From the NCBI GenBank assembly GCA_035310145.1, contig DATGEL010000008.1:1-38387 (forward strand): 38,387 bases of DNA, read 5' to 3'. The stretch comes from Dehalococcoidia bacterium (GTDB lineage: Bacteria > Chloroflexota > Dehalococcoidia > CAUJGQ01). Positions within the stretch are counted from its first letter, which is position 1. Each line of letters begins with the position of its first letter. Below, in pieces: positions 28,101 to 35,663 of this stretch. The translations under genes were made by a program, and so were the position numbers. Under the pieces are notes generated by a model. The model searched no databases. It worked only from the letters and a program-made list of their open reading frames with translations, and had not been told where the DNA came from.

Positions 28101-29213
28101 TCAGCCGGCGGCATCCGTCGCCCCGCCCAGCTCCGCCAGCCGCCGGCCGATCAGCTCTGCCTCGTCGGCCGAGACGGCACGCGGGTCGATGAGCACCACG
28201 CCTTCGTCGAGATGGTGATTGCGCGTGCGGATCGGCGGCGTGCCCGCGGCGAGGGCGGCGGCCAGCGACCGCGCTCGTTCCGGCGTGCAAACCAGCGCCA
28301 GGCGTTCGATCGGCCGGCCGGCTTCGTCCGGCACGACGCGCAGCTCAATGCCGGGCAGCACGCCGGCCGGCGCACGGATGGCGGCGATCACTCCGGCCTG
28401 CCGCTCTCGCTCCTCGGCCATATTGCGACACAGATACTCGCGGAGCGCGGCCACCAGGCCGAGCATGTCCTCCTTGCCCACCTTCATCGGCCGCGCCACC
28501 CCGGCGAACTGGGCATCCGCAGCCGCAACCAGATCCGCTCGCCCGAGCAGCACGCCGCTGGTTGGACCCTCGAACGCCTTGCCGCCGCTGTACGCCACCA
28601 GGTCGGCGCCGGCGGCGAGGTAGCGGCGCAGATCCTCCTCCGCGGCCGCATCGACGACCACCGGCACGTCGCGCGCATGGCAGATCTCCAGCCAGGCCGC
28701 GAGCGGCAGCCCGTTCACCTGCGCGCAGTGGTGCGAGACCACGAACATCGCGCAGGCGACGCCTCCCGCCTCGATCGCCGCCTCCAGATCGCGCGGCCGC
28801 ACGTTGTTGACCGTGCCCACCGGGACCGGCCGGCCACCGCCGAGACGGATCATCTGCTCGATCGGGGCGCCGAAGTCGACCAGGTGGCCCGGCTGGATCG
28901 GCACGCGGTTGGACAGGCCGCGGCTGTGCGGCAGGCGGGCGATGGCGGCGCTGTCCGTGCCGGCGATGCAGCCCGCCACGGCCATCACCAGGCCCGCGCT
29001 GGCGCCGGCCGTAACCGTCCCGGCCTCGGCGCCGGCGAGCCGCGCGATCTCGGCGCCCGCCGCGTGACGCAGCGCGGCCAGGTCGACATGTGTTCGCGCC
29101 GCTTCGGCCATCGCCGCGATCGCCGCCTCGCCCAGGGCGCTGCCGCCGAGCGCCGTCAGCCTGCCGGCGGCATTGATCACGGGCGAGACATGCAAGTCGT
29201 CCAGCAGCCCCAT
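28101..29213 (-). CDS. SelA-like PLP enzyme (DgaE-type ammonia-lyase family)
   Basis: 370 residues. VINAAGRLTALGGSALGEAA at the start, HHCAQVNGLPLAAWLEICHA in the middle and the PLP site YSGGKAFEGPTSGVLLG (Lys about 218) fit the SelA-like group that includes DgaE, the D-glucosaminate-6-phosphate ammonia-lyase. It is shorter than true SelA (about 450 residues) and lacks SelA's extra N-terminal part, so it is not a convincing selenium transferase. It lies 21 bases after the SDR gene, downstream of a kinase and deacetylase, which fits a sugar-acid ammonia-lyase role. AAGGAG is 9 bases before the ATG. Confidence 0.85.
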   Translation of the reverse strand: MGLLDDLHVSPVINAAGRLTALGGSALGEAAIAAMAEAARTHVDLAALRHAAGAEIARLAGAEAGTVTAGASAGLVMAVAGCIAGTDSAAIARLPHSRGLSNRVPIQPGHLVDFGAPIEQMIRLGGGRPVPVGTVNNVRPRDLEAAIEAGGVACAMFVVSHHCAQVNGLPLAAWLEICHARDVPVVVDAAAEEDLRRYLAAGADLVAYSGGKAFEGPTSGVLLGRADLVAAADAQFAGVARPMKVGKEDMLGLVAALREYLCRNMAEERERQAGVIAAIRAPAGVLPGIELRVVPDEAGRPIERLALVCTPERARSLAAALAAGTPPIRTRNHHLDEGVVLIDPRAVSADEAELIGRRLAELGGATDAAG

Positions 29214-34098: not shown

Positions 34099-34587
34099 TC
34101 ATTCCGTTGGCGGCAGCCGGCGCAAGCGGCGCAGGTGCCGCACGAACGCTGGCGCCTCGGGGCCGTCGAACAACGGCAGCACGGCGACAGGGTCGCGCCC
34201 ATCGCCCAGCTTCCGCAGTCCATCGAGGCATTCGCGCCGCGAAAGGCTGGCGTCCCAATCGCGGCAAGCCTGCGGCCGGGCCTCGTGCACGGCGCAGCCC
34301 GCGCGGCCGTCCTCTTCGCGGAGGAAGGTGCAGCCGCCCTCGCGCTCCAACAGCTGGTAGCGCTCCTCAGCCAACGGATACGGGCGGGCATAGCCCGCGA
34401 GGAACGCTTGCAACGGCAGGCCGAGGAAGCTCGCCAGCCGCTCCGCCTCATCGCGGCCGATCAGCGGCTGCCAGCGCCGGCAGCAGACGCCGCAACGGAA
34501 GCAGGGGATCGCCTCCTCGTCGGTGAAGCGGCCGAGTCCCGTGTCGAAGCTACGTTGAGACTCCGCGGCATGAAGGATGATGCGCAT
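34099..34587 (-). CDS. YkgJ-type cysteine-cluster (Zn/Fe-S) protein
   Basis: 162 residues. CFRCGVCCRRWQPL near the N-terminus, then GGCTFLREEDGRAGCAVHEA and RPQACRDWDASLSRREC give the CxxCxxCC...C...C...C pattern of the YkgJ family, thought to bind zinc or an Fe-S cluster and of unknown role. It is first in a two-gene unit with the zinc-ribbon NTPase. It diverges from the FmdB/selenoprotein-like genes across 172 bases. Confidence 0.85.
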   Translation of the reverse strand: MRIILHAAESQRSFDTGLGRFTDEEAIPCFRCGVCCRRWQPLIGRDEAERLASFLGLPLQAFLAGYARPYPLAEERYQLLEREGGCTFLREEDGRAGCAVHEARPQACRDWDASLSRRECLDGLRKLGDGRDPVAVLPLFDGPEAPAFVRHLRRLRRLPPTE

Positions 34588-34759: not shown

Positions 34760-35014
34760 ATGCCGATCTATGAGTACGCCTGCGAACACTGCGGTGACCG
34801 CTTCGAGAAGCTACGGCCGATGAGCGCCGCCGGCCAGCCCGTGCCATGTCCCGCCTGCGGCCGTCCGGCAGGCCCGCTCGTCTCGCGCCTTTCACGCGTG
34901 ACCGGCGCCGAGGAAGGCGCCGGCGACGCGGACCTGGGCGCGGAGCCACCGGCGATGCCCGGTCACTCGCACGGCCACGGTCATTCCCATGGACCGGGCG
35001 GCCACATGCACTGA
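34760..35014 (+). CDS. FmdB-family zinc-ribbon protein with His-rich tail
   Basis: 84 residues. MPIYEYACEHCGDRFEKLRP is the exact FmdB start, with zinc ligands Cys8/Cys11 and Cys30/Cys33 (CPAC). The C-terminus is His/Gly-rich (GHSHGHGHSHGPGGHMH), able to bind Ni, Zn or Cu. FmdB proteins are putative regulators named from a formamidase operon, and their exact role is unknown. AAGGA lies 6 bases before the ATG. The recoded gene begins 13 bases after the stop, so co-transcription is very likely. Confidence 0.85.
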   Translation: MPIYEYACEHCGDRFEKLRPMSAAGQPVPCPACGRPAGPLVSRLSRVTGAEEGAGDADLGAEPPAMPGHSHGHGHSHGPGGHMH

Positions 35015-35027
35015 GACGGAGCGCAGC

Positions 35028-35663
35028 ATGCCTGACTGGCTCAAGCGTCTGACCGCGCGCGGCGCACCGGTGAACGACGTGCCCGTGGCCGTTGCAGCGC
35101 CGCCGAAGCCGCCGACCTTCAAAGCCGAGTTCGCTCCGGCCTTCGCGACGAAGCTCGCCGTGGACAGCGCCGGCGCGCCCGGGCGCGCCGGCGCCGAAGC
35201 GCTCTATCAGAAGTGGGCGGCGCGCTGGCAGGAGTTCTGAGAACCGGTCGGCACGGGCGGTCTGCCCGTCCGCGGCGAGCTGCTCGCTTTCTGGGACGCG
35301 GGTCCGTCTCCGTCCGACGAGACCGTCGCGGCCTGGCAGACCGCCGGCTGGCGCGTGGCATTGGGCGTCGAGCTGGTGGCGCACCTGGAGCCGGTGCTCG
35401 ATATCGACCGCTGCCGAGTCGGTTTTTGTGCCGAGTCCGAGGAGTTGGCGGCCGAATTCGTCAAGCTGATCGACGTCGAGAATCTTGAGGCGCGGCAGCG
35501 GCGGGCGCACCCGTCCGGCGTCGCCCAGCGCCTCGCCTGCGACGTGCTGCTGCCGCTGCGCCCGGACGCGCCCGACGATGAGGTCGACAACGCGATCGTG
35601 GCCGCCGTCAAGGCCTCGCACACGATCTTGTGCCCGGCCGGATTGCGCCCGCGGCCGGAGTAA
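35028..35663 (+). CDS. Probable selenoprotein of unrecognised family (Sec71 at TGA 35238-35240)
   Basis: Read with TGA 35238-35240 as selenocysteine, this is a 211-residue protein (MPDWLKRLTARG to GLRPRPE, TAA at 35661). The frame stays open for 140 codons after the TGA, in the same frame and codon style, and the next residues read EPVGTGGLPVRGELL. A hairpin with the bacterial SECIS form begins just after the TGA. There is no signal peptide or membrane helix, so it is cytoplasmic; it has Cys129/Cys134 and two later Cys, and a basic N-terminus with a Pro-rich part (KPPTFKAEF). I do not recognise the family. Without recoding it would be a 70-residue stub plus an ORF beginning at 35355. An in-frame nonsense mutation or a sequencing error is the alternative. 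It follows the FmdB gene by 13 bases. Confidence 0.6.
35241..35272 (+). promoter_or_regulatory. Bacterial SECIS-like hairpin
   Basis: The 18 bases after the TGA end in ACGGGC (35253-35258), the loop is GGTCT (35259-35263), and GCCCGT (35264-35269) closes a perfect 6-bp stem. Three more pairs (GGC... below a bulged C at 35252, with CCG 35270-35272) extend it. The loop starts at base 19 after the TGA, and GGT-CTG are codons 7 and 8 after it. The E. coli fdhF SECIS as I remember it has GGUCUGC at the same places. The general rule (loop 16-37 bases after UGA, G in the first two loop positions) is met. Confidence 0.65.

Follow-up and report, generated by a model that had tools for sequence, protein, structure and literature searches.

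An interrupted reading frame downstream of an FmdB-type gene

The window, by which we mean the whole stretch of 38,387 nucleotides analysed here (contig DATGEL010000008.1 of a Dehalococcoidia bacterium, assembly GCA_035310145.1), contains a small gene whose reading frame includes one TGA codon, preceded by a gene for an FmdB-type zinc-ribbon protein. The features of this locus are the following.

34760..35014, plus strand: FmdB-type zinc-ribbon gene (PF09723, E 1.3e-14), 13-nt gap to the putative selenoprotein gene
35018..35021, plus strand: likely ribosome-binding site GGAG, as read from the sequence, 6 nt 5' of the ATG
35028..35663, plus strand: putative selenoprotein gene, 211 residues with selenocysteine (Sec) at 71; a single TGA, with homologues that have TGA at the same codon
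35214..35636, plus strand: conserved domain, approximately residues 63-203, common to Cys-type relatives fused to CbiX, CDF or LarC-like proteins (hhalign and AlphaFold)
35238..35240, plus strand: TGA probably read as selenocysteine (residue 71), kept in seven genes and replaced by Cys in distant homologues
35243..35276, plus strand: predicted SECIS in full, counting a weaker lower stem formed by 35243-35246 and 35273-35276, from an RNAalifold consensus of seven sequences
35253..35269, plus strand: upper hairpin of the predicted bacterial SECIS, with a 6-bp stem (35253-35258 with 35264-35269) and the loop GGTCT (35259-35263), 18 nt after the TGA
35427..35429, plus strand: conserved Cys134, invariant in six TGA-type proteins and present in at least 90% of Cys-type proteins
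35619..35621, plus strand: conserved His198, located in the last helix and without variation in either the TGA-type or the Cys-type alignment

The frame at 35028-35663 terminates with TAA and comprises 211 codons counting the TGA. A single in-frame TGA at 35238-35240 in an otherwise continuous frame had been reported in a preliminary description of this DNA, and re-reading of the sequence returned the same coordinates. The FmdB-type gene and the putative selenoprotein gene likely form one transcript. Upstream of the FmdB-type gene, on the minus strand, the window also contains a gene for a CxxCxxCC putative zinc-/iron-chelating domain (34099-34587, PF03692).

The TGA codon is conserved in six Chloroflexota genomes

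With the single window protein as the query, no match was obtained in the genome contigs; relatives were found when an alignment was used instead. The search of relatives revealed the same in-frame TGA in genomes G001 and G064, a third relative was found in the Thermomicrobiales MAG AVDCRST_MAG49, and a class search centred on that MAG yielded the copies in G839 and G843. Altogether, TGA occurs at the identical codon in seven genes from six Chloroflexota genomes (the window's own genome, G000, and G001, G064, G739, G839 and G843), with G843 carrying two diverged copies (L132 and L133), each with the TGA and the hairpin. The six genomes are all drafts, MAGs in at least three cases, so that the evidence base is assembled sequence, and the G064 copy ends at the end of its contig. 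Annotation with standard stops splits these TGA-type genes.

The TGA-type relatives are 38-50% identical in protein sequence to the window domain and have the motif W..[RK]W.E[FYL]-U-EP...GG.P[VI]RG around the TGA. After the TGA, the first two positions of the codons are more conserved than the third, as in translated sequence. We looked for a conserved neighbour common to all TGA-type genes and found none, and a search of the plasmid collection gave no match. One further match, in G111 (L004), lacks the site motif and was set aside.

The hairpin downstream of the TGA is conserved in register

The upper hairpin reads ACGGGC-GGTCT-GCCCGT (35253-35269), with a 5-nt loop. In the E. coli fdhF SECIS, GGU-CUG forms codons 7 and 8 after the UGA. 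The window hairpin likewise has a GGUCU loop with GGU-CUG as codons 7 and 8, and this placement, the 6-bp stem and the loop, all proposed in the preliminary description, were recovered when the sequence was re-read. The resemblance is confined to the RNA, as the window protein is unrelated to formate dehydrogenase, and in contrast with the GGUCU loop of fdhF, five of the seven TGA-type genes have GGUCC. The hairpin register is kept in all seven. Published limits for bacterial SECIS elements specify a loop of 3-9 nt, a stem of 4-16 bp, G in the first two loop positions, a distance of 16-37 nt from the UGA and an MFE of at most -7.5 kcal/mol (PMC13188914). When scored as had been suggested, the hairpins of all seven genes, at -9.6 to -15.1 kcal/mol, lie within these limits.

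To what extent such a structure might arise by chance depends on which of its properties is considered. The combination of open frame, spacing and loop had been described as hard to explain by a random stop. This holds for the exact register, given that a GU loop in this position is found in only ~2% of synonymous recodings per gene, but it does not hold for the open frame or the stability of the hairpin, both of which are weak indicators at 70% GC: the chance of an open 140-codon stretch after a stop is ~6% at this composition, and the stability of the hairpin is equalled or exceeded in 18% of recodings. Open-frame length and hairpin energy were rejected as stand-alone evidence for this reason. 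The case for a selenoprotein draws its strength instead from the conservation of the TGA and the hairpin between genomes.

Codon usage and covariation provide further evidence on the hairpin. The GU of the loop comes from the second Gly codon, and this codon is GGT in 7/7 TGA-type genes compared to 8/56 Cys-type genes (Fisher p = 1.2e-5, a value that overstates independence because the seven TGA-type genes are related), and GGT accounts for 7% of Gly codons in the sampled window genes. Compensatory changes, in which both sides change, were observed at two inner stem pairs (columns 17-31 and 21-27); in G839, the stem change GGC to GGT together with CCG to CCA is wholly synonymous and preserves the pairing of the RNA. 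Comparison of the genes shows that the predicted SECIS is under selection.

The genomes encode the selenocysteine machinery

The preliminary description had proposed a genome search for selA, selB, selC and selD, and selA, selB, selD and tRNA-Sec were all found in the window's genome. Across the TGA-type genomes, selA and a tRNA-Sec with a UCA anticodon are present in 6/6, selB in the three genomes searched for it (G000, G001 and G064), and selD in the four searched (G000, G001, G064 and G739). Each selD has its own known Sec TGA, which serves as an internal control for TGA recoding in these genomes. In these selD loci (L095, L096, L097 and L094, in G000, G739, G001 and G064, respectively), the TGA lies in G-U-xxK, and standard annotation likely truncates the genes. 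The window itself contains, at 28101-29213, a gene for a SelA-family PLP enzyme (PF03841) that is a weaker match than true SelA, which is encoded elsewhere in the genome.

Distant homologues have cysteine at the TGA column and include fusions to metal proteins

A profile built from TGA-type proteins only (A1) retrieved distant homologues in which the TGA column is occupied by Cys, within W..FCELAL.GGPPHRG, and alignment of the TGA-type and Cys-type profiles with hhalign (probability 98.9, E 1.5e-17) placed Sec on Cys. Cys occupies the site in 56 distinct Cys-type loci, but because the motif filter allowed only Cys or a stop there, independent support for Cys comes from the profile search and the alignments. 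The residue at position 71, which the preliminary description had singled out for comparison, is Cys in these homologues rather than Trp or Arg. The same description had raised the possibility of homologues that begin near 35355 as separate proteins; the homologues are instead continuous through the site. TGA-type and Cys-type proteins form separate clades, each fully supported, with a long branch between them, so that no close Cys orthologue is known and the Sec/Cys pairs are between subfamilies. Stops inside L067, L070 and L074 (TGA), L068 (TAA) and L081 (TAG) were also considered and rejected: none falls on the Cys site, and all five loci have Cys there.

The Cys-type domain is found in several architectures. 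In Chloroflexota relatives it lies C-terminal to CbiX, and in L043 / L058 (G208 contig C163) it is part of a CbiC-CbiX-domain triple fusion followed by a tetrapyrrole methylase (TP-methylase) gene. L106, L109 and L135 are CDF (Cation_efflux) transporters with a C-terminal Cys-type domain, and a Fur-family gene adjoins the L135 fusion divergently. In L081 (G605 contig C416), a CbiX domain, a LarC-like Ni_insertion (PF01969) region and the Cys-type domain are encoded in a single frame. Of the 18 stand-alone Cys loci in the window's class (L024-L041), 15 have a divergent FmdB-type zinc-ribbon gene nearby, at ~350-420 bp. An FmdB neighbour is therefore common to the window gene and Cys-type genes and ties the Sec gene to its Cys-type relatives.

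Alternative readings of the TGA codon

If the TGA were a normal stop, 35028-35240 would code for a 70-residue protein, followed either by a second gene at 35355-35663 or by nothing. Long open frames are indeed common at 70% GC, and a GTG start is present at 35355. However, homology is unbroken through the TGA in both the full-length relatives and the Cys homologues, and the residues to either side of the TGA rank with the family's most conserved, even though the codons just after it would be non-coding under this reading, which we consider very improbable. Still smaller is the probability of a pseudogene or a sequencing error at the TGA: while the assemblies are all drafts and the case is read from assemblies rather than from reads, the same TGA is present in seven genes of separate assemblies, and the same hairpin follows it in every case. 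Decoding of the TGA as a standard amino acid, e.g., Trp, by a changed code or plain readthrough would also leave the frame open, but TGA terminates 11 of the 16 sampled window genes, the homologous residue is Cys rather than Trp, and the complete Sec machinery is present in the genome; we regard this, too, as exceedingly unlikely.

The window gene almost certainly encodes a selenoprotein of a new family, as judged from comparative sequence data. In the mechanism that we propose, the ribosome would insert selenocysteine at the UGA at 35238-35240, directed by the predicted SECIS hairpin together with SelA, SelB, SelD and tRNA-Sec, whose genes lie in other parts of the genome; the signals and the machinery are both seen in the sequence. 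The joint claim, that the gene product is a selenoprotein and also a member of a metal-associated domain family, is very likely correct.

Fold and family status of the domain

The preliminary description had guessed that the selenoprotein family might be undescribed, and we found no counterpart in Pfam, NCBIfam or the 2026 inventory of 119 prokaryotic selenoprotein families (PMC13188914). Pfam and NCBIfam models gave no match to the window protein; PF01903 (CbiX), in particular, is present only in the fused relatives. None of the 119 families has the window domain, the comparison being by name only for families that have no Pfam or NCBIfam model (PMC13188914). A sequence search of the PDB with the domain returned no relative, and the CbiX chelatases that came up in the PDB search were rejected, as they match only the CbiX part of the fusions. 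Searches of the open literature, taken without subscription papers and preprints, brought up no description of the domain family. DR2241, a multi-domain chelatase of Deinococcus that has extra domains, was absent from the sequence matches and from among the top fold matches listed. If confirmed, the window gene would add a selenoprotein family to the Chloroflexota and a protein domain absent from Pfam and NCBIfam.

The AlphaFold model of the window protein has a core pLDDT mostly >90, and that of a Cys-type domain, made from a separate alignment, has a pLDDT of 87.7. Both models resemble the small domain found in PLP enzymes of fold type I (VIA Z ~10, with 100-117 residues aligned at an rmsd of mostly 3-4), with best Foldseek E values of 0.019 for the window model and 1.4e-4 for the Cys-type model. 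Despite this likeness in predicted fold, the 211-residue window protein has neither the PLP-binding large domain of these enzymes nor a match to a PLP-enzyme Pfam family, and sequence identity is 6-20%; the match is not taken to imply a function. In the models, a helix that ends at Sec71 precedes the GG.PVRG loop, while Cys134 belongs to a strand and His198 to the final helix. Cys134 is possibly a partner or co-ligand of Sec71. In G706, a DegT-like aminotransferase frame (L092) has an N-terminal RW..GFCALGAIGGLPVRG similar to the motif at the Sec site, and the protein is consistent with the fold of the PLP small domain. Together, this motif and the fold hint at an origin of the domain, although we do not claim descent from L092.

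Several known proteins are similar to the window protein in some respects. The Chloroflexota sirohydrochlorin cobalt/ferrochelatase is a CbiX with a C-terminal extension, which corresponds to the Cys form of the window domain; unlike it, the window protein is without a CbiX domain and probably has Sec. The CobW-related (NF041053), FmdB and BtuF selenoprotein families are listed in the inventory (PMC13188914) and share with the window protein a link to cobalt or metal handling; an FmdB gene adjoins the window gene. In contrast with these families, the window protein matches no NCBIfam model, and the neighbouring FmdB has Cys.

A possible role in transition-metal handling

Based on the fusion partners, the Fur and FmdB neighbours and the conserved Cys/Sec, Cys and His residues, it is possible that the Sec domain serves transition-metal handling, a reading to which we give a chance somewhat short of even. 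The window protein is a free-standing form of a small alpha/beta domain, and its Cys relatives are the C-terminal parts of CbiX cobalt chelatases, CDF transporters and a CbiX-LarC-like protein. The domain may bind or deliver a transition metal, e.g., Co, Ni, Fe or Zn, with Sec71 (Cys in the relatives), Cys134 and His198 forming a metal or redox site. A more specific version is doubtful: here the protein would be a metallochaperone or metalation factor built on selenocysteine, with Sec71 bound directly to the metal, and the domain would hand cobalt, nickel or iron on to chelatases and transporters. These data point to selenium use in transition-metal handling; selenium in metal delivery, if true, would be a use not established for the families in the 2026 review (PMC13188914). 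Through the Cys-type relatives fused to CbiX, CDF and LarC-like proteins, the function of the entire domain family can be approached experimentally.

Alternatively, the protein could be a true selenoprotein in which Sec is a redox catalyst, a Sec71-Cys134 selenylsulfide reducing a disulfide, a peroxide or an oxidised cofactor, with the link to metals being indirect. Among selenoproteins whose role is known or has been proposed, most are redox proteins (PMC13188914). The window protein has a second conserved Cys, and CbiX was searched for but not found in three of the six genomes (G001, G839 and G843). On the other hand, the protein lacks CxxU and UxxC motifs, none of the top fold matches is thioredoxin-like, and the relatives are fused to metal proteins, not to reductases. 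While a purely redox role is a substantial contender, at roughly a one-third share of our confidence, we favour transition-metal handling.

Whatever its activity, the TGA-type protein cannot depend on CbiX in the three genomes in which CbiX was not found, and its role is likely broader than CbiX. In the window's genome, CbiX is present inside a cobalamin cluster. Such a cluster on contig C113 (L152) contains CbiC, CbiD, CbiG and a TP_methylase-CbiX-CbiX fusion, and is unlinked to the selenoprotein gene.
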